Positions 229-9,643 of a stretch of DNA of 64,000 bases are shown piece by piece. Position numbers and translations under genes: made by a program. Each line of letters starts with the position of its first letter. The stretch's first letter is position 1. The notes beneath the pieces are model-generated. The model saw only the letters and a list, made by a program, of their open reading frames with translations. It made no database searches and was not told the DNA's origin. The DNA comes from Bacteroidota bacterium (GTDB taxonomy: Bacteria; Bacteroidota; Bacteroidia; Bacteroidales; SZUA-534), in the NCBI GenBank assembly GCA_003250355.1, contig QKGS01000002.1, positions 1-64,000 of the forward strand. The letters run 5' to 3'.

Positions 229-1203
229 TTATTTGTTCTCTATCAACATCAAATCTGCCATTGTAATAGCTGCCATTGCTTCAACAATAACCGGTGCCCT
301 CAATGCTACACACGCATCGTGGCGACCTTTGATAACCAGTTCTTCAACTTTACCTGTTTCAAAATTCATAGTTTGCTGAGGCTTGGCTATACTCGATGTT
401 GGTTTTATTGCCAAACGGAAAACTATATCATTACCATTTGTAATTCCACCAACTATACCACCTGCATAATTTGTTGATGTTGTCCCTTTATCATCAATAA
501 TTGGATCATTGTGTTCCATTCCTGTCATGCGTGCAGCTTGAAAGCCTGCACCGAATTCTATTCCTTTCACTGCAGGAATAGCAAACATAGCATGACTTAG
601 AAGCGATTCTGCTGAATCCCAGAATGGTTCTCCCAATCCAACAGGTATCCCTTTAATAGTACATTCAATAATTCCACCAATAGAGTTATGGTCAGCCACA
701 GCTTTATCAATAGCAGCATCAATATCGGTTGAGCCACCTGCTTCAATTAGTTTTGCTTCAAATGTAACTCCTTCAAGCACCTTTTTAGCAACTACACCTG
801 CTGCAACAATACCTGTAGTTAAACGAGCTGAAAAGTGACCTCCGCCACGGTAATCGTTAAATCCGTTGTATTTTATGCGACCTGTATAATCAGCATGACC
901 AGGACGTGGCTGTGCTACCAAATTGGCATAATCGCCTGAACGGGTATTTGAATTTTTAAAGAAAATAGTTAATGGTGCACCTGTTGAGCAATTATTAAAT
1001 ACTCCCGACATAAATTCAGGCAAATCAGCTTCAACTCGCGGTGTTGTCCCTTTTTTACCTGCCCTGCGACGTCCCATATCGGGTTCAAAGTCGGCTTCGT
1101 TCATAGGTGTTCCCGGAGGACAACCATCAATTGTAATTCCGGCACCTACACCGTGCGACTCACCAAATATGTGTACTCTGAATATTCTTCCGAATGAATT
1201 CAT
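229..1203 (-). CDS. aroC: Chorismate synthase
   Basis: Converts 5-enolpyruvylshikimate-3-phosphate to chorismate, the last shikimate-pathway step, using reduced FMN. The N-terminal FGESHG signature is at residues 13-18, RPGHAD at about 100-105 and the flavin/substrate segment RGGGHFSARLTTG at about 119-131. At 324 residues it is shorter than the usual 350-360, but all family blocks are present and the C-terminal region (AxRAPVIVEAMA) is recognisable. It is the last gene of the leftward aromatic operon, 20 bases after the HigA-like antitoxin gene, so its expression may depend on readthrough from higBA or on a local promoter. The identification is secure. Confidence 0.95.
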   Translation of the reverse strand: MNSFGRIFRVHIFGESHGVGAGITIDGCPPGTPMNEADFEPDMGRRRAGKKGTTPRVEADLPEFMSGVFNNCSTGAPLTIFFKNSNTRSGDYANLVAQPRPGHADYTGRIKYNGFNDYRGGGHFSARLTTGIVAAGVVAKKVLEGVTFEAKLIEAGGSTDIDAAIDKAVADHNSIGGIIECTIKGIPVGLGEPFWDSAESLLSHAMFAIPAVKGIEFGAGFQAARMTGMEHNDPIIDDKGTTSTNYAGGIVGGITNGNDIVFRLAIKPTSSIAKPQQTMNFETGKVEELVIKGRHDACVALRAPVIVEAMAAITMADLMLIENK

Positions 1204-1933: not shown

Positions 1934-3187
1934 CTAAAATGTAAAGTTTCTGAAATCGTCAAAGAACTCAGGGTATGATTTAGCAACACACTCTGCTCCT
2001 TCAATTGCAATTTCTCCAGTGGCATTAACAGCTGCTAAAGCCATAGCCATTGCTATACGGTGGTCATTATGCGACGATACTGTAACACCTCCTGTTATTT
2101 TACCTCCGGTAATTAGCATTTCATCTTTTATTTCATCGAGTTCTATTGAAATACCTACTTTTTTAAATTCCTGCTGAACGGTAAGTGCCCTGTTACTCTC
2201 CTTATGAGTTAAACGGTGAATACCTTTAATTTTTGTAGTACCTTCACAATTCGATGCTAATGAAGCTAATACAGGGAAAAGGTCGGGACAGTGAGTAGCA
2301 TCCATTGTAAATGCTTTTAATGGAGTATTGGGCTTTTTAACTGTATAGCAATCACTGCTTTGGGTAACTATAGCTCCGGCTTTTTCTAAAGCTTCTAAAA
2401 CAGCCTTATCGGCCTGTGTTGAATTTGCCTGTAATTTATCTACAATTATCTCACCGCCAATGGCTCCTGCAATTAATAATCCGGCAGCACCACTCCAATC
2501 TCCTTCTATTAAATAATTAGTTGAACTAAATTGCTGTTTACCCTTGATTTTAAATACCTTATAGTTGTCATTAATTATTTCACCACCAAAGTCAGCAACT
2601 GCTTTTAGTGTCATATCAATGTAAGGAATACTCATTAGTTTGTCAACGTGCAATTCTGAATCGTATTCTGCTTTTGGAAGCGAAATAAGTAAGCCTGTAA
2701 GAAACTGGCTACTTGTAGAACCATCAACCATAGCTTTACCACCAAGAATAGGTCCGTGAACCGAAATAGGCGGTTTTCCGTTATGAGTTTCCACTCTTAC
2801 ACCTAATTGGCTTAGAGTATGTTCCATAAAGTCGACCGGGCGTGTAAGAAGCGACCCCTCGCCTTTCAAAGTTATTTTATGACTGTTGAGTGCTGCCAAT
2901 GGAGTAAACATTCGTATTCCAAGACCTGCCTCTCCGCAGTTCAATTCTGCAGGAGTTGCATTTTCAATTGGTTCTATCCTAATTGTATCTTTATCAACAT
3001 CAACTTTGAATCCGAACTTACGAGCAATATCAATTGCTGCAATACCGTCGTTACATGTTGAAGGGTTTTCTAGTGTTATTGATTTTCCGGCAAGTATTGC
3101 TAGTGCTATGGCACGTTGCATAAAACTTTTCGATGCCGGAGCTTTAACTTTTCCGTTTACTTTTACTGGTTTTACTACTTCTATCAT
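1934..3187 (-). CDS. aroA: 5-enolpyruvylshikimate-3-phosphate synthase
   Basis: Transfers the enolpyruvyl group of PEP to shikimate-3-phosphate. It has the standard length of 417 residues. The phosphate/substrate motif APASKSFMQRA is at residues 17-27; further on are GDWSGAAG, HRLTHKESNRA and the C-terminal SHNDHRIAMA (the DHRxAM signature). It has the two-domain EPSPS layout with no truncation. It is 30 bases after aroD in the operon. The N-terminal loop has no Gly at the classical LFLGNAGTA position (here NCGEAGLGIRMF), a variation common in Bacteroidota. Confidence 0.95.
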   Translation of the reverse strand: MIEVVKPVKVNGKVKAPASKSFMQRAIALAILAGKSITLENPSTCNDGIAAIDIARKFGFKVDVDKDTIRIEPIENATPAELNCGEAGLGIRMFTPLAALNSHKITLKGEGSLLTRPVDFMEHTLSQLGVRVETHNGKPPISVHGPILGGKAMVDGSTSSQFLTGLLISLPKAEYDSELHVDKLMSIPYIDMTLKAVADFGGEIINDNYKVFKIKGKQQFSSTNYLIEGDWSGAAGLLIAGAIGGEIIVDKLQANSTQADKAVLEALEKAGAIVTQSSDCYTVKKPNTPLKAFTMDATHCPDLFPVLASLASNCEGTTKIKGIHRLTHKESNRALTVQQEFKKVGISIELDEIKDEMLITGGKITGGVTVSSHNDHRIAMAMALAAVNATGEIAIEGAECVAKSYPEFFDDFRNFTF

Positions 3188-3217: not shown

Positions 3218-3847
3218 CTATAAATTAGATAAAATATTTTTAACTACGCTAATCTTCAATTGTCCGGGTGCTGTTTGCTCTATGTTATCGCCACTTACAA
3301 AAGTAAATGGAGCTCCGAATTTTAACGCACCTATACGGGTTATTGTTCCGAGTTGTCCCATACCTAGTGCCAACATTGGTACATTATGGTTATACATAGA
3401 AATAAGTGCTGCATTGTCTTTTTCTGTAATTACCATGGTGGCCATTTTTACAAGCTCTGCTCCCATTTCAATTGAATTATCCACTATTTTGTTTAGCTCA
3501 ATAACTGAAGGGGTTTTATTATAATCGTGATATGAAATAATTACCTTACACCCCTTAGCTTTTGCGTAAGCAGCAAGCTCATTAGTAAAGGCTCTGTCCG
3601 ATTCTATTTCAATATCAACCCATGCTGCACCATTGTCAATTGCAACCTTTAATAGTTCCATTCTTTGAGCATCGGTAACACCTTCGGGACGGCAGGTTGC
3701 TATAAGGTTTTTATGTAGTTTAAAAACCTCGGCAGTAGTTTCTTTATTCAATCGGCACGATTCTATCCTTATTTCAGCCATTTCGGCCTCTTTTAGCTGG
3801 GCTTTAATGGTTTCAATATTCTTATCTGCAATAGCTATACAAAGCAT
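3218..3847 (-). CDS. aroD: 3-dehydroquinate dehydratase, type I
   Basis: Dehydrates 3-dehydroquinate to 3-dehydroshikimate through a Schiff base. It is 209 residues, at the short end for type I enzymes (about 220-250). The catalytic His is in ISYHDY (His107) and the Schiff-base lysine is Lys134 in ELVKMATM. The C-terminal SGDNIEQTAPGQL fits the family substrate loop. The preceding aroB gene is separated by a 99-base gap filled with a heptameric repeat hairpin. No shikimate dehydrogenase or shikimate kinase gene is present in this cluster, so those steps are encoded elsewhere. Confidence 0.9.
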   Translation of the reverse strand: MLCIAIADKNIETIKAQLKEAEMAEIRIESCRLNKETTAEVFKLHKNLIATCRPEGVTDAQRMELLKVAIDNGAAWVDIEIESDRAFTNELAAYAKAKGCKVIISYHDYNKTPSVIELNKIVDNSIEMGAELVKMATMVITEKDNAALISMYNHNVPMLALGMGQLGTITRIGALKFGAPFTFVSGDNIEQTAPGQLKISVVKNILSNL

Positions 3848-3863
3848 AATTTTAATTTAGTAT

Positions 3864-3954
3864 GCAGTCTTCAGTACCCAGTCGGCAGTCGGCAGTCGGC
3901 AGTAAATTATATTACTGCGGGCTGTGGACTGAAGACTGTGTACTGTCTACTGAA
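3864..3954. repeat. Heptameric (cagtcgg) inverted repeat hairpin
   Basis: The left arm is a run of 7-bp units of the form CAGTNNN, including three CAGTCGG units. The right arm is the matching run ACTGNNN (ACTGAAG, ACTGTGT, ACTGTCT, ACTGAAT). The arms can fold into a long imperfect hairpin. It fills the aroD/aroB gap, so it would be transcribed in the operon mRNA, and its left-hand end overlaps the last codons of aroB. It belongs to the same family as the elements near 5.0, 20.0 and 33.8 kb. Confidence 0.7.
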
Positions 3955-4969
3955 TAGTTACTTTCTTTAATTCTTCAATTTTAATGGGCTCAATGCTTGC
4001 TTTACCAATGCCATTTAGTAAAACGAAATGAATAACATCACCCTCGCGCTTTTTATCCATTGTTAAAGCATTTAGTATCTCAGCATGACGCTCAGGAATT
4101 ACTGTGGGCATTTCAAGAGCTTTAAGCAGTTTTAAAATGCGGTCGTAATCATTTTGCGAAAGCAACCCTTTTGCAACCGATAACTGAGCTGCAATAACCA
4201 TTCCCAAACTTACGGCATTTCCATGAGAAATTCCCAAAACTTTTTCGGCAGCATGGCCAAATGTGTGTCCGAAATTAAGCTTACGACGTTCGCCACTCTC
4301 CTTTTCGTCGCGGTTTACTACGTTACTTTTTATTTCAACTGAGTTTACAACAAGTTTCTCAATTAGCTCATTATCAACAGATAGAAGTTTGTCGGTATTG
4401 TTTTCAATAAATGAAAACATATCGGCATCTTCAATCAATGTATGCTTAACTATTTCGGCAAAACCACAGTGAAGGTCGGCTTTATCGAGTGTTTTCAACA
4501 TTTTGGGGTCGCAAATAACAAAATTTGGTTGACTAAATACTCCAACCATATTTTTATATCCGTCGAGATTTACCCCACACTTGCCGCCAACGCTGGCATC
4601 GACCTGCGATAACAAGGTTGTTGAAATAAATCCAAACTCCATACCGCGCATATAAGTAGAGGCTGCAAATCCGGCAATATCTGTAACTATTCCGCCACCT
4701 ACTGCAAGCAGAAATGTTTTTCGGTCGGCTTCATATTCAATAAGTTTTCTAAGAATATCGCCAATTGTATCGAGTGTCTTTACTTTTTCGGTTTGACCAA
4801 TAACAATCAATGGATATTCTTTAAAATACTCTCCGTAAATGGTGTTCACTTTATCGTCGGTAAGTACTATAACTTTTCTATTGGGAAGGTAATTTTTGAA
4901 ATTTTTAAAATCCTCACCTACAAGTATTTGCGATTCCGATTGTGAACCTTTTATTCTTATATCTTTCAT
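3947..4969 (-). CDS. aroB: 3-dehydroquinate synthase
   Basis: Cyclises DAHP to 3-dehydroquinate; an NAD- and divalent-metal-dependent enzyme. It is 340 residues. The nucleotide-binding loop GGGIVTDIAGF is at 91-101, the conserved STTLLSQVDASVGGKCGVN block at 116-134, and the metal ligands lie in LNFGHTFGHAAE. It is followed by the heptameric hairpin and aroD, and preceded by a 185-base gap that also carries heptamer repeats. All catalytic blocks are present. Confidence 0.95.
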   Translation of the reverse strand: MKDIRIKGSQSESQILVGEDFKNFKNYLPNRKVIVLTDDKVNTIYGEYFKEYPLIVIGQTEKVKTLDTIGDILRKLIEYEADRKTFLLAVGGGIVTDIAGFAASTYMRGMEFGFISTTLLSQVDASVGGKCGVNLDGYKNMVGVFSQPNFVICDPKMLKTLDKADLHCGFAEIVKHTLIEDADMFSFIENNTDKLLSVDNELIEKLVVNSVEIKSNVVNRDEKESGERRKLNFGHTFGHAAEKVLGISHGNAVSLGMVIAAQLSVAKGLLSQNDYDRILKLLKALEMPTVIPERHAEILNALTMDKKREGDVIHFVLLNGIGKASIEPIKIEELKKVTIQ

Positions 4970-4977
4970 ATAATAGT

Positions 4978-5155
4978 CGCCAGTTATCAGTAGGCAGTAG
5001 GCAGTCGGCAGTTCTCAGTTAGCAATCAATTATATATCGTTTTTTATGTACTTTTTAGAATTTACCTAATCAAATACAAATCAACGTTTCTACTCTTGTT
5101 TAGCAATTACTGTGGACTGCCTACTGTAGACTGCTTGTGTCTACTGCAAGCTGAT
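4978..5155. repeat. Heptameric (cagtagg) inverted repeat
   Basis: The left arm, from about 4983 to 5022, repeats CAGTAGG/CAGTCGG-type heptamers. The right arm, from about 5110 to 5155, carries the complementary ACTGNNN heptamers (ACTGTGG, ACTGCCT, ACTGTAG, ACTGCTT). The arms are separated by roughly 85 bases of AT-rich sequence. The element occupies the whole gap between aroB and the DAHP synthase gene and could form a large intercistronic hairpin. Confidence 0.65.
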
Positions 5156-6243
5156 TATTGGTTCATTATTTGTGTTTGTTTATTGATAGATTCCTGGTGA
5201 ATAGCTTTGAAAAGAGCAACAATAAAATCGGTGCTCAAATTGCGTGTTTCACCAAGCTCTTGTGCTTTATCAAGAATAGCTGTCCAGCGGTCGGGCTGTA
5301 ATATTGTAATATTGTTCTCTTTTTTGTAAAGCCCTATTTGTTCCGAAATTCTCATTCTTTCCTCAAGAATATCTAATAATTCCTTGTCGAAATTATCAAT
5401 TTGCTGGCGTAATTCGTTAAGACTGGTATCCTGAATATCAACATCTTTTATGTCGCGATGACGGATAACTAATTTGCTGAGTATTTCATTTAGTTTCTCA
5501 GGTGTAACCTGCTGTTTTGCATCGCTAAGAGCCTTGTCGGGGTTACAGTGTGTTTCAATTATAAGACCATCGAAATTAAGGTCGTATGCTTTTTGCGATA
5601 TTTCCTGAATTAAGTCGCGACGACCGCCAATATGGCTAGGGTCACAAATCATAGGTATTTCGGGCATACGCTGACGCAACTCAATAGGAATTTGCCACAT
5701 AGGAATATTACGGAAACGTGTTTTGTTAAACGACGAAAAACCTCTGTGTATTGCTCCAACATGCTTAATACCTGCACCTTGTATTCTTTCAATAGCTCCT
5801 ATCCAAAGGTCGGTATCGGGGTTAACAGGGTTTTTAATAAATACAGGTATTTCAACACCTCGCAGAGCATCGGCAATTTCCTGCATTGCAAAGGGGTTAG
5901 CCGATGTGCGAGCACCAATCCAAATAATATCAACACCTTTGCGTAGAGCTTCGTAAACGTGTTTTACGTTAGCTACTTCGGTAGCAACTTGCATACCAAG
6001 CTCTTTTTTTACTAATTGTAACCAGTCTAAACCAACTGAACCTACACCCTCAAATGAATTAGGACGTGTACGCGGTTTCCAAATTCCTGAACGAAATACT
6101 GTAATACCCTGCTCTTTTAGTTGGCGAGCTGTATTCATTACCTGCTCTTCTGATTCGGCACTACATGGTCCTGCTATTATTAACGGACGGGTATCTTTAT
6201 CGAATCCCCAATCCTTAAACGGATGCTTTAGAATATGATTCAT
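5155..6243 (-). CDS. Bifunctional DAHP synthase / chorismate mutase
   Basis: A fusion of two aromatic-pathway enzymes. Residues 1 to about 265 form a class I-beta DAHP synthase (AGPCSAE at 24-30; then WKPRTRPNSFEG, VFIKNPVNPD, ICDPSHIGG and IIETHCNPDKALSD). Residues about 275-355 form an AroQ-type chorismate mutase (LNELRQQIDNFDKELLDILE, then ERMRISEQIGLYKKENN). It therefore holds both the first committed step and the branch step to prephenate. In known fusions the mutase domain also serves as the prephenate sensor for feedback; that is family knowledge, not visible here. It is 31 bases after tyrA in the operon. Confidence 0.93.
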   Translation of the reverse strand: MNHILKHPFKDWGFDKDTRPLIIAGPCSAESEEQVMNTARQLKEQGITVFRSGIWKPRTRPNSFEGVGSVGLDWLQLVKKELGMQVATEVANVKHVYEALRKGVDIIWIGARTSANPFAMQEIADALRGVEIPVFIKNPVNPDTDLWIGAIERIQGAGIKHVGAIHRGFSSFNKTRFRNIPMWQIPIELRQRMPEIPMICDPSHIGGRRDLIQEISQKAYDLNFDGLIIETHCNPDKALSDAKQQVTPEKLNEILSKLVIRHRDIKDVDIQDTSLNELRQQIDNFDKELLDILEERMRISEQIGLYKKENNITILQPDRWTAILDKAQELGETRNLSTDFIVALFKAIHQESINKQTQIMNQ

Positions 6244-6274: not shown

Positions 6275-7117
6275 CTAATTTAATACACTTTTAATTCTGT
6301 TGGCTTCAAATATCAGTTTATGTATTTGCTCAACATCTTCATTGCTGATAGCCTCTCTGAATAGTTTTAATTTTTCAATATATGTATCAAGAACAGTTAA
6401 AACATTCTTTTTGTTGTGACTAAATATTGGCGACCACATTTCGGCCGAACTCTTAGCTAAACGAACCGTAGAACTAAACCCTCCACTAGCCAAATCAAAT
6501 ATTTTTTTATCGTCTTTTTCTTTGTCTAAAACAGTTAGTGCCAATGCAAATGAGCTGATATGCGAAATATGCGATACATAGGCAGCATGTTCATCGTGGC
6601 TTTTACCATCCATGTATATAACTCTCATATGCAGTGTTTCATACATCTCTTTAAGTATTTCAACAGCACGTGTGTCGCTCTTTTCGGTATCACAAAATAT
6701 AGTAGCCTTACCGTCGAACAAACACGATTGTGCTGCCCATGGTCCTGAAAACTCGGTTCCGGCCATTGGGTGTGTTGCCACAAAATTTTTTCTCATAGGA
6801 TGGTCTTTTACTAACTCTAAAAGATCGTATTTTGTTGAACACATATCGGCTACGTACTGATTATCGTTAATAGTATTGAGTATTTTGGGCAGTATAGCCA
6901 TTGCTGCACTTACCGGAATGGAGAGTAAAATAATGTTTGCTCGTTCTATTGCCTGGTCTAAAGTGCATACTTCATCAACAAATCCAATATGTTCTGCGGT
7001 ACGTGCATTTATTATATCTTTATCAACTCCGATTATCCTTTCGGCAAATCTCCGTTTTTTAAGATCAATAGCTGCAGATCCGCCCATTAATCCTAGTCCT
7101 ATTACTGCTACTATCAT
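6275..7117 (-). CDS. tyrA: Prephenate dehydrogenase
   Basis: Oxidative decarboxylation of prephenate to 4-hydroxyphenylpyruvate, the tyrosine branch. It is 280 residues. The Rossmann motif is VIGLGLMGGSAA at residues 5-16, and the catalytic-region block is HPMAGTEFSGP near residue 115. The following helical domain matches TyrA dimerisation helices. No ACT domain is fused, so allosteric control, if any, must come from elsewhere. It is separated from the upstream aminotransferase gene by 252 bases holding a REP-like element. Confidence 0.92.
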   Translation of the reverse strand: MIVAVIGLGLMGGSAAIDLKKRRFAERIIGVDKDIINARTAEHIGFVDEVCTLDQAIERANIILLSIPVSAAMAILPKILNTINDNQYVADMCSTKYDLLELVKDHPMRKNFVATHPMAGTEFSGPWAAQSCLFDGKATIFCDTEKSDTRAVEILKEMYETLHMRVIYMDGKSHDEHAAYVSHISHISSFALALTVLDKEKDDKKIFDLASGGFSSTVRLAKSSAEMWSPIFSHNKKNVLTVLDTYIEKLKLFREAISNEDVEQIHKLIFEANRIKSVLN

Positions 7118-7245
7118 TTTTTAGTTATTCAAAAGTTCAAGGTTTAAAAACCTGTCAAATTATCTACTTTTAGTTGCGATGCATAGTTTCATTATATTTC
7201 AAATATTAATTCCTGCTTGCATCGCTTTTGTTCTTCACTATATTT

Positions 7246-7292
7246 CCGTGGGTTGAAACCCACGGCTACAAAACTATAACCCCTACGGGGTT
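7246..7292. repeat. REP-like double hairpin
   Basis: Two adjacent perfect hairpins: a 9-bp stem CCGTGGGTT/AACCCACGG with a 2-base loop (7246-7265) and a 6-bp stem AACCCC/GGGGTT with loop TAC (7278-7292), separated by 12 bases. A decayed copy with the same order is at about 38153-38197. The arrangement resembles REP/BIME elements mobilised by RAYT transposases, but no such gene is in the window. Confidence 0.6.
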
Positions 7293-7369
7293 TTATATTT
7301 CATAACTCATAATTAGAATTTTCATATTATATGTTTACTTATCAAATCGAAATTCTGAGTTCGTTATTC

Positions 7370-8536
7370 TTACTTCTGAATCTCCTTGATTCTATTTATC
7401 GATTCTTTAATGGTATCGACATTGCTGCAAAGCGAAATACGTGCATACTTCACTCCCATACTTCCAAAAATAGTTCCGGGTGTAATAAACACTTTGGCTT
7501 TATGCAAATAGTAGTCTGATAATTCAAAAGCATCGGTATATTTTTCAGGTATACGGGCCCATATAAACATACCGCACTGGTCTTTGCTATACTCACAACC
7601 TATTAGGTCGAAAAGTTGCCAAACCAGCTCTCGCCGCTTGGCATATTCGGCATTAATAGCTTTGAACCACTCTTTACCGCTTTGCAAAGCTTTGGCAGCA
7701 GCAAGCTGCAATGGTTTGTACATACCGGTATCAACATTGCTTTTTACTTTCAGTATCTCTTTAATAACTTCAGGAGCTGCAGCAATCATTCCAATACGAA
7801 AACCTGCCATATTGTGCGATTTACTTAATGAATTTAGTTCTATAGCTATATCTTTTGCCCCCGGAACAGCCATTAAGCTTATTGGATTATCGTTGAGTAT
7901 AAAGCTGTACGGATTATCATTTACAATAAGTATATTATGTTTTTTTCCAAATGCCACAAGCTTTTCGTAAAGCTCCATTGTAGCCGGCTGACCTGTAGGC
8001 ATATTCGGATAATTAACCCACATTACCTTTACACCCGATAAATCCATCTGCTCAAGTTCATCGAAATCGGGTAACCAGTTATTTTCAGGTTTTAAATCGT
8101 AAATAACCAGTTCATTGCCCAATATTTTGTTAATAGACTGATATGTAGGATATCCGGGGTTTGGAACAAGTATTTTATCGCCCGGGTTTAGGTATGTCAT
8201 CGAAACATACATAACTCCTTCTTTAGAGCCTATTAATGGCAATATTTCTGTATTAGGGTCAAGGTCTACTCCATACCAAGTTTTATAAAAACCGGAAAAT
8301 GCTTTGCGCAATTCGGGAGTACCTACATAACTCTGATAACCATGAATATTCACGGCATCGGAGTTTATATGCATTGTTAACTCATCGAGAGTTTCCTGTG
8401 AAGGAAACATATCGGGGTTACCTATACCAAGGTTTATAACCTTTGGTCCCGATTGGTTTAAAATTTCAATTTCCTTAATCTTTTGTGAAAAGAAGTACTC
8501 CTGAACCGTTTTAGTTCTTTCTGCGGGTTGTATCAT
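7370..8536 (-). CDS. Class I/II aminotransferase, probably aromatic
   Basis: A PLP-dependent fold-type I aminotransferase of 388 residues. GSKEGVMYVSMTYLNPGDKILVP marks the cofactor-phosphate region, VNYPNMPTGQ is the conserved NPTG-like block, NDNPYSFIL carries the Asp/Tyr pair, and SLSKSHNMAGFRIGM contains the PLP lysine. C-terminal Arg-containing block: KYARISLC. It lies between pheA and tyrA, which makes it the likely transaminase for phenylpyruvate and hydroxyphenylpyruvate (or prephenate). Sequence alone does not separate this from an aspartate- or LL-diaminopimelate-type specificity. It is 37 bases after pheA. Confidence 0.85.
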   Translation of the reverse strand: MIQPAERTKTVQEYFFSQKIKEIEILNQSGPKVINLGIGNPDMFPSQETLDELTMHINSDAVNIHGYQSYVGTPELRKAFSGFYKTWYGVDLDPNTEILPLIGSKEGVMYVSMTYLNPGDKILVPNPGYPTYQSINKILGNELVIYDLKPENNWLPDFDELEQMDLSGVKVMWVNYPNMPTGQPATMELYEKLVAFGKKHNILIVNDNPYSFILNDNPISLMAVPGAKDIAIELNSLSKSHNMAGFRIGMIAAAPEVIKEILKVKSNVDTGMYKPLQLAAAKALQSGKEWFKAINAEYAKRRELVWQLFDLIGCEYSKDQCGMFIWARIPEKYTDAFELSDYYLHKAKVFITPGTIFGSMGVKYARISLCSNVDTIKESINRIKEIQK

Positions 8537-8573: not shown

Positions 8574-9449
8574 TCACTGATTATGAATAAGTCCAAGCGA
8601 TTCTATTGCATGTTTATATTCACCATATACGTTCAAATCAATTACAAGTGGCGATATTGCAGATAATGCCTGTTGATACCTTGCATAATTTTCGAATATC
8701 ATATCGATATAAAAGAAATATCTAAACTCCTTTCCTATTATTGGCATTGACTGTATTTTAGTTAAGTCCATATCGTAAAAAGAGAGTACACTAAGTACCT
8801 GCGATAAACTACCTTTTTGCGAAGGCAGCGAAAAATACAACGACGCTTTATTGCAGTTTGCCCTTTCGCATTCGTTATCGTCATTGTCTTTATGTGTAAG
8901 TACAAGAAAGCGGGTATAGTTTCGTTTATTGGTTTCAATACTTTCTGCAAGCATCTCAAGTTCATACATTTGTGCTGCAAGCTCTGATGCTATGGCTCCT
9001 CGGCCGCTAAGGTCAGTATCTTTAATATATTTGGCACTAAGAGCCGTATCCGACGACTCTACCAATCGTATTTCAGGATAATTCTTTTTAAAGAAGTTAC
9101 GACATTGTTCTATTGCCATATAGTGCGAATGAACCTCAGTAAGGTCTTCTATTCTTTGACCCGGCAGAGCAACCAAATTATGCTTTATACGCAAATACTC
9201 TTCTCCAATTATTTTTAACGGTGATTCCCGCAATAGCTTGTAGTTCTGAATAAGACTACCGGCAACTGTATTTTCAATTGCCATCATACCTAACGATAGT
9301 TCTTTTGCTGCAAGCATATCAGTAAGGTCGTCGAAGGTATTGCATGGAACTACATCAATATCTTCACCGGCAAAATAGCTTCGTGCAGCTATTTCATGAA
9401 AAGCTCCAAAACCTCCTTGTATTGCTATTCTCTTCTTCGAGTCGCTCAT
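8574..9449 (-). CDS. pheA: Prephenate dehydratase with ACT domain
   Basis: Converts prephenate to phenylpyruvate. It is 291 residues. The N-terminus AIQGGFGAFHEIAARSYF begins the catalytic domain; AIENTVAGSLIQNY and the threonine motif in NKRNYTRFLVL (about residues 178-188) complete it. Residues about 205-285 form an ACT regulatory domain (LYFSLPSQKGSLSQVLSVLS). The usual Phe-binding ESRP is replaced by IQSMPI, so allosteric inhibition by Phe may be altered. It is the first structural gene of the operon. The start is fixed by the leader region: the attenuator terminator ends 14 bases upstream of the ATG. Confidence 0.93.
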   Translation of the reverse strand: MSDSKKRIAIQGGFGAFHEIAARSYFAGEDIDVVPCNTFDDLTDMLAAKELSLGMMAIENTVAGSLIQNYKLLRESPLKIIGEEYLRIKHNLVALPGQRIEDLTEVHSHYMAIEQCRNFFKKNYPEIRLVESSDTALSAKYIKDTDLSGRGAIASELAAQMYELEMLAESIETNKRNYTRFLVLTHKDNDDNECERANCNKASLYFSLPSQKGSLSQVLSVLSFYDMDLTKIQSMPIIGKEFRYFFYIDMIFENYARYQQALSAISPLVIDLNVYGEYKHAIESLGLIHNQ

Positions 9450-9462
9450 TCAGTATACAAAT

Positions 9463-9530
9463 AAAAAAACCCCGCATTCAGCGAGGTTCAGTATTATTAT
9501 TTTGTTTAATTCGTTGCACTAAAACCTCGT
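9463..9530 (-). promoter_or_regulatory. Attenuator: alternative antiterminator and terminator before pheA
   Basis: Reading leftward, an 8-bp stem AACCTCGC (9488-9481)/GCGGGGTT (9475-9468) with loop TGAAT is followed by five further T, forming an intrinsic terminator just before the pheA start. The same AACCTCG (9488-9482) is perfectly complementary to CGAGGTT at 9529-9523, which covers the last codons of the leader peptide. The two pairings exclude each other, as in classical amino acid attenuators. Stalling upstream frees the antiterminator; a ribosome at the leader stop codon hides it. Confidence 0.85.
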
Positions 9531-9593
9531 TTCACTTCTATTGAAATAAAAGAAAAATTGATAATAGTAAGTATTTGTAACAAGGCTCAACAT
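9519..9593 (-). CDS. pheL: Phe/Tyr-rich leader peptide of the aromatic operon
   Basis: A 24-codon ORF that starts about 15 bases after the predicted transcription start and ends in TAG inside the attenuator. Residues 9-17 are YYYQFFFYF, so eight of nine codons encode Tyr or Phe; residue 24, the last before the stop, is also Phe. The control codons (9569-9543) end 13 bases before the antiterminator strand at 9529-9523, the spacing expected for a stalled ribosome to leave that strand free. It is not homologous in sequence to enterobacterial PheL; the symbol is used by analogy. Translation in vivo is unproven. Confidence 0.85.
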   Translation of the reverse strand: MLSLVTNTYYYQFFFYFNRSETRF

Positions 9594-9614
9594 TTTTGTG
9601 TTTTTAATTGGCTA

Positions 9615-9643
9615 CAAATGTAGTATTTTTTTTGAATTTCAAA
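9615..9643 (-). promoter_or_regulatory. Promoter of the aromatic operon (Bacteroidota type)
   Basis: On the minus strand TTTG (9643-9640), a 17-base spacer and TACATTTG (9622-9615) match the Bacteroidota primary sigma consensus TTTG/TAnnTTTG exactly. Transcription should start near 9608, just upstream of the leader peptide ATG at 9593. It is the only obvious promoter upstream of pheA. Confidence 0.75.

Follow-up and report, generated by a model that had tools for sequence, protein, structure and literature searches.

A putative phenylalanine- and tyrosine-sensing transcription attenuator upstream of pheA that is near-universal in the class Bacteroidia

Introduction

Directly before the prephenate dehydratase gene pheA of a Bacteroidales genome lies a short reading frame crowded with Tyr and Phe codons, which raises the question of whether this frame is the leader peptide of a ribosome-mediated transcription attenuator and, if so, how widely such a switch is kept among relatives. 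Leader-peptide attenuation is textbook biology from the gamma-proteobacteria. A survey of attenuation motifs suggested that they arose in that group and underwent few transfers (PMC3766115), and such control has hardly been studied in the class Bacteroidia, where the candidate switch described here occurs almost throughout. The locus lies in a window of 64,000 nucleotides (positions 1 to 64,000 of contig QKGS01000002.1, assembly GCA_003250355.1), for which an earlier sequence-only reading had proposed an attenuator of the phe/trp type. From the comparative analysis of this DNA and its relatives, we conclude that the element before pheA is very likely a ribosome-mediated transcription attenuator of that type, sensing both Phe and Tyr; the comparison across relatives is what makes the interpretation so likely.

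Materials and methods

Regions upstream of pheA were taken from the whole genomes of relatives and from named GTDB genomes. A locus was counted as having an aromatic leader if a reading frame within 350 nt 5' of pheA held at least six F, Y or W in nine residues. Base pairs of the alternative stems were counted in 69 loci aligned by sequence alone, all drawn from loci with a 2:3 helix positioned near the aromatic run.

Results

The leader region of the window

All elements of the candidate attenuator lie on the minus strand; the sequence-only reading gave no strand and missed strand 1 (9588-9579). The Bacteroidota-type promoter that it proposed remains a good candidate (9615..9643), consisting, as read from the sequence, of TTTG (9643-9640), a somewhat short spacing of 17 nt, and TACATTTG (9622-9615), which is a perfect TAnnTTTG -7 element 29 nt 5' of the leader ATG. 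This element recurs within 70 nt 5' of the leader start in 102 of 141 relatives, compared with 4.5% in shuffles, and its median distance to the ATG among relatives, 29 nt, equals that of the window; because of this conservation, a transcription start downstream of 9519 is unlikely.

The 24-codon leader ORF is present as had been described, encoding MLSLVTNTYYYQFFFYFNRSETRF followed by a stop codon (9519..9593). Its codons 9-17 (9543..9569) read Tyr Tyr Tyr Gln Phe Phe Phe Tyr Phe (YYYQFFFYF), which places eight Tyr or Phe codons within nine before a cluster that includes pheA and tyrA, a density reached in 0 of 1000 dinucleotide shuffles of the window's upstream region. Strand 1, GAGCCUUGUU (9579..9588), spans codons 2-5, and strand 2, AACGAGGTTT (9522..9531), overlaps the end of the ORF. 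In the predicted minimum-energy structure of the full leader, strand 1 pairs with AACGAGGUUU (9531-9522) in a 10-bp helix, the predicted protector or pause hairpin 1:2, and strand 1 is thereby predicted to complete the classical four-strand design of 1:2, 2:3 and 3:4 pairings.

The core of strand 2, CGAGGTT (9529-9523), lies in the last leader codons and is, as had been claimed, the full complement of AACCTCG in the 5' arm of the terminator. That arm, strand 3 (GAACCTCGC, 9481..9489), serves equally as the 3' arm of the predicted antiterminator, and strand 4 (GCGGGGTTT with the T tract, 9463..9475) forms the intrinsic terminator with it. The mutually exclusive terminator of the sequence-only reading was likewise confirmed (9489-9463): a 9-bp stem of GAACCTCGC/GCGGGGTTT, a TGAAT loop and a T tract that ends just 5' of the pheA start, folding at -13.5 kcal/mol (z = -4.7), with equally good folds in 0 of 200 shuffles. 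Counting against an attenuator, the 2:3 helix of the window has only 7-9 bp and a linker of about 30 nt. The locus nevertheless has the features by which attenuators are recognized, namely a run of end-product codons, a terminator lying past the ORF and ahead of the first gene, a predicted antiterminator that uses the terminator's 5' arm, and a predicted 1:2 pairing.

The downstream gene cluster and the reach of the attenuator

From pheA to aroC, all genes are codirectional on the minus strand. The first is pheA (8574..9449), the only gene in the genome with a PDT domain, followed by a class I/II aminotransferase (7370..8536), tyrA for prephenate dehydrogenase (6275..7117; NF006307 above its cut-off), a DAHP synthase fused to chorismate mutase (5155..6243; both domains matched, below the equivalog cut-offs), aroB for 3-dehydroquinate synthase (3947..4969; TIGR01357 above cut-off), aroD for type I 3-dehydroquinate dehydratase (3218..3847; TIGR01093 just below cut-off), aroA for EPSP synthase (1934..3187; TIGR01356 above cut-off) and, last, aroC for chorismate synthase (229..1203; TIGR00033 above cut-off). 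Between aroA and aroC lie two small genes of 99 and 118 aa (1224-1876) without an NCBIfam match, which resemble a toxin-antitoxin pair of the HigB-HigA type. AroC, of 324 aa, matches the chorismate synthase model over two stretches that are not contiguous, as though part of the model had no counterpart in the protein.

How far the attenuator reaches depends on the 252-nt gap between the aminotransferase and tyrA (7118-7369), which contains two hairpins or palindromes, AACCCCGTAGGGGTT and CCGTGGGTTTCAACCCACGG, neither with a clear T run. No Tyr-specific second leader before tyrA, and no ORF with an aromatic run, was found in this gap. Because its hairpins are without a clear T run, a single transcript from pheA to aroC is plausible. 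The competing view is that the attenuator acts on pheA and the aminotransferase only and that tyrA to aroC are transcribed from a promoter of their own, for which the gap and its hairpins speak; it is weakened by the lack of a clear T run behind either hairpin, by the common direction of all genes, and by a listing in which pheA, the aminotransferase, DAHPS-CM and tyrA of B. thetaiotaomicron form a single attenuated operon (PMC1173090). We regard this shorter reach as unlikely, yet as an alternative to be taken seriously; it concerns reach rather than mechanism, and can hold together with the attenuator explanation.

Conservation of the leader across Bacteroidia and beyond

The Phe/Tyr-rich frame that the sequence-only reading had expected to be conserved upstream of pheA was found in 100 of 104 Bacteroidales loci and in 37 of 39 loci from other orders of the class, about 96% conserved, and in 3 of 19 loci from other classes of the phylum. 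The leader criterion was passed by about 2% or less of dinucleotide shuffles and by 0 of 355 random 350-nt pieces from the same loci. Among control windows 5' of hisG or trpE, some of them from near-identical species, it was passed by 4 of 37, so that AT-rich intergenic DNA somewhat exceeds shuffles in aromatic-rich frames. Leaders averaged 5.6 Phe and 4.1 Tyr in Bacteroidales and 5.0 Phe and 3.7 Tyr elsewhere in the class, and Trp occurred in about a fifth of them (31 of 137; 14 of 101 in Bacteroidales, 17 of 36 elsewhere in the class).

Four loci of the Bacteroidales set fell below the threshold. Three of them (L044, L051 and L098) have weaker leaders with terminators, and the fourth, L108, is the sole locus of the set with no leader directly 5' of pheA. 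The two exceptions from other orders (G253 and G332; loci L263-L266) belong to one family, f50, in which the cluster runs DAHP synthase-aroB-aroA-pheA and the leader (e.g., MLSTAASYFTFFYFYFRSENRIGAVYRLAKN, with a terminator) precedes the DAHP synthase gene, 3.5-4 kb 5' of pheA; the attenuator thus appears to track the head of the operon while gene order changes. Outside the class, all six examined genomes with a Bacteroidia-type PheA have the leader (G073, G125, G215, G192, G334 and G342), and none was found in the remaining other-class genomes examined, with a more distant PheA, which suggests that the element follows the operon and not the species. As judged by this aromatic reading frame, the putative Phe/Tyr leader is near-universal in the class Bacteroidia.

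Two further observations concern the PheA proteins. The L044 locus stands on a contig labelled Lentisphaerae (JAAYZO010000560.1), and encodes a PheA 53% identical to that of the window behind a weak aromatic leader and terminator; we read this occurrence of PheA and leader in a record assigned to another phylum as misbinning or transfer. Among the six genomes from outside the class (L151-L153, L237-L239), three encode PheA within a fusion frame about 700 codons long.

Covariation of the alternative pairings

The antiterminator (2:3) and terminator (3:4) pairings both covary. With the stretch past the aromatic run set against the terminator's 5' arm, mean 2:3 duplex energy was -13.75 kcal/mol for native arms, -8.97 kcal/mol for arms swapped between loci and -6.3 kcal/mol when that stretch was shuffled, and the native duplex was better than the median swap in 126 of 134 loci. 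In the 69-locus alignment, 2:3 positions paired in 78.6% of cells (shuffled 72.3 ± 0.7; 44-54% after a one-column slide) with 59 double changes against 19 in shuffles, counts slightly favoured by the choice of loci with a 2:3 helix near the run, which affects the swap test less. The terminator was detected automatically in 134 of 141 loci and was visible in the other 7; over the 69 aligned loci, its arms paired in 94.5% of cells with 110 double changes (23 shuffled), and 11 of 11 pairs covaried with both sides changing. The sequence-only reading had named compensatory changes in both alternative stems of relatives as a check, and with these found alongside the conserved frame, the phe/trp-type architecture that it proposed is supported. 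Pairing of strands 1 and 2 in relatives is moderately supported by the duplex energies (native -10.9, swapped -8.6 and shuffled -8.3 kcal/mol; native better in 104 of 133 loci).

The best hit of a covariance model built from the 69 leaders (R1) within the genome of the window was the pheA leader (2.1e-5). The model also matched many ordinary terminators, and was rejected as too unspecific for finding further attenuators.

Spacing, a pause-like motif and what reads the leader

The distance from the last aromatic codon to the start of strand 2 has a median of 10 nt in relatives (quartiles 8.75-11) and is 12-13 nt in the window and 8 nt in E. coli K-12 pheL, and the position of the leader stop codon varies widely, from well past strand 2 to just before it. 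The stretch that a ribosome covers past its A-site codon is roughly 9-10 nt. With this footprint and a spacing of about 10 nt, a ribosome stalled in the run would leave strand 2 free and an advancing one would cover it; as a matter of geometry, the spacing is that expected if a ribosome controlled strand 2.

Past the invariant G of strand 2, the 69-locus alignment has T at +9 in 45 of 69 loci and G at +10 in 44 of 69 (1.0 bit at the G), as well as T at +7; position -1 is usually G. A TATG-like motif can accordingly be seen 7-10 nt past the strand-2 G (alignment A2; about 9520-9515 in the window), irrespective of whether the leader ORF covers it, and in the window the TG dinucleotide at the pause-like position (9517..9518) lies one nt nearer strand 2 than in the consensus of the relatives. 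The bacterial pause consensus is G-11 G-10 ... Y-1 G+1. The conserved motif agrees with it, and would place a polymerase pause right after strand 2.

It could be asked whether translation is involved, since the stems might be real and a protein or small molecule (a riboswitch ligand or TRAP-like factor) might choose between them, the aromatic frame then being a side effect of RNA rich in pyrimidines. In favour of this view, the purine-rich region of strand 2 does pair with strand 1 and the aromatic codons, and structure could thus account for some of the pyrimidine richness. Against it, the frame is specific, beginning with ATG and remaining open in 135 of 141 leaders, whereas an open frame starting with ATG exists in just 11 and 3 for the other two registers; strand 2 follows the final aromatic codon at an almost fixed distance; Trp codons (TGG) are used as well in the 31 leaders counted above; and no T-box or riboswitch family of Rfam was matched, the T-box not even at E ≤ 10. 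We therefore hold control independent of translation to be very improbable. Least probable is that the ORF is the gene of a small, aromatic-rich protein with a function of its own and that the terminator does no more than reduce expression of the genes behind it: some bacteria do have leader peptides that can act in trans (peTrpL, PMC7298713), but only aromatic character is kept here, with order, length, C-terminal part and stop position all varying, and RNA pairing and spacing are kept even though a protein needs no strand 2 at 10 nt past the run.

Other amino acid leaders in the genome and its relatives

Leaders of the same kind were seen before other biosynthetic genes. In the window's genome, a Trp leader, MNISVKNIWWWHINSQ (NIWWWH), with a terminator, GCCTGTCGCATTTCACGACAGGC, and T tract precedes trpE (L195:1300-1440, G000 contig C48), and leaders resembling IWWWH occur before trp genes in relatives as well; Rfam Bacteroid-trp matched none of these leaders at its cut-off, and gave nothing above it at the trp loci of this family. 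A Thr-rich leader ending in TTTTTP precedes the gene for a bifunctional aspartokinase/homoserine dehydrogenase in the same genome (L229, G000:C30:132000-133200), with similar thr leaders in relatives (e.g., TTTITTTTIITPP in L232). Most hisG loci of relatives (L171-L188) have His leaders with runs such as HHHHHH, up to 6-7 His, and none was found within 350 nt of hisG in the window's own genome. With trp and thr leaders in this genome and his leaders in its relatives, ribosome-mediated attenuation looks like a general layer of control.

Discussion

Proposed mechanism and meaning

Under the attenuator explanation, transcription would start about 15-20 nt 5' of the leader ATG, and RNA polymerase would synthesize strands 1 and 2 and then, to judge from the motif, probably pause just past strand 2. 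When charged tRNA-Tyr or tRNA-Phe is scarce, the ribosome on the leader would stall at the Tyr and Phe codons, leaving strand 2 just past its leading edge, free to pair with strand 3; the 3:4 terminator would then be blocked, and pheA and the genes behind it would be transcribed. When both tRNAs are charged, the ribosome would run over strand 2 to the stop codon, 3:4 would form, and transcription would end at the T tract, and in the absence of translation the 1:2 hairpin would form and termination would follow by default. Relief of termination by Phe or Tyr starvation in vivo, and the dynamics of the switch, are what we would expect from this arrangement.

In its broadest form, the proposal is of a class-wide attenuator family, kept throughout Bacteroidia and shared by the six genomes from other classes whose PheA is of the same type; a single leader would respond to two (sometimes three) aromatic amino acids and control the entire aromatic pathway. 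We give this reading about an even chance. If true, and with a programmed pause past strand 2, it would imply tight coupling of transcription and translation in a phylum largely without Shine-Dalgarno initiation. Ribosome-mediated attenuation requires such coupling, which our literature search found no paper testing in Bacteroidota; since it needs a ribosome close behind RNA polymerase, these leaders would be ready reporters for coupling in the phylum. A near-universal Phe/Tyr leader beside trp, his and thr leaders would also make attenuation a fundamental level of control in a major phylum, and the leader predicts how gut and environmental Bacteroidia set their production of phenylalanine and tyrosine. 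The value of the element accordingly lies in its near-universality in Bacteroidia, its predicted double (sometimes triple) amino acid reading, and its implication for coupling.

Comparison with known systems

The closest known counterpart is enterobacterial pheL (Rfam RF01859), which likewise has a leader ORF with control codons, 1:2, 2:3 and 3:4 strands, a T tract and pheA downstream. E. coli pheL reads Phe only, whereas the leader of the window mixes Phe with Tyr, and about a fifth of its relatives add Trp; its candidate promoter is of the Bacteroidota type, and its cluster holds both branches and several steps of the shikimate pathway. Membership of the RF01859 sequence family was rejected (29.5 bits for the window and 34.4 for the best relative among the matches listed; gathering cut-off 55), so the leader would work like Phe_leader while standing outside that family. 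Single leaders with control codons for more than one pathway product are known from ilvGMEDA and thr of enterobacteria. The combination here differs from those in being Phe and Tyr (plus Trp in relatives). Vitreschak 2004 and Lopatovskaya 2010 reportedly mention cases from Bacteroidetes/Chlorobi, among which the leader of the window may be included.

Within the phylum, the Bacteroid-trp RNA (RF01692, PMC2864571) is a Bacteroidota cis-regulatory RNA, as is the present element, and its name places it before a trp operon; the window had no match to it above the cut-off, and membership was rejected. Leader-like sORFs have been reported in B. thetaiotaomicron (PMC7366714), and strong clues for leader-peptide attenuation 5' of amino acid operons, left unnamed in the passage concerned, in Flavobacterium psychrophilum (PMC9723704, 2021), which is of the same class as the window. 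In a search that reached few subscription papers, we came across no account of the Phe/Tyr leader as a family spanning the whole class. Closest to the present locus is a putative attenuator listed for the pheA operon of B. thetaiotaomicron, with the same operon head and of the same class; the entry, taken from the Merino database, stands in Table 7 of a 2005 paper (PMC1173090) and names neither a leader peptide nor the amino acid sensed, nor does it report conservation. The kind of mechanism is therefore already known, and with a case listed in B. thetaiotaomicron in 2005 and a putative leader now found to be near-universal in Bacteroidia, the leader is less restricted than had been thought.
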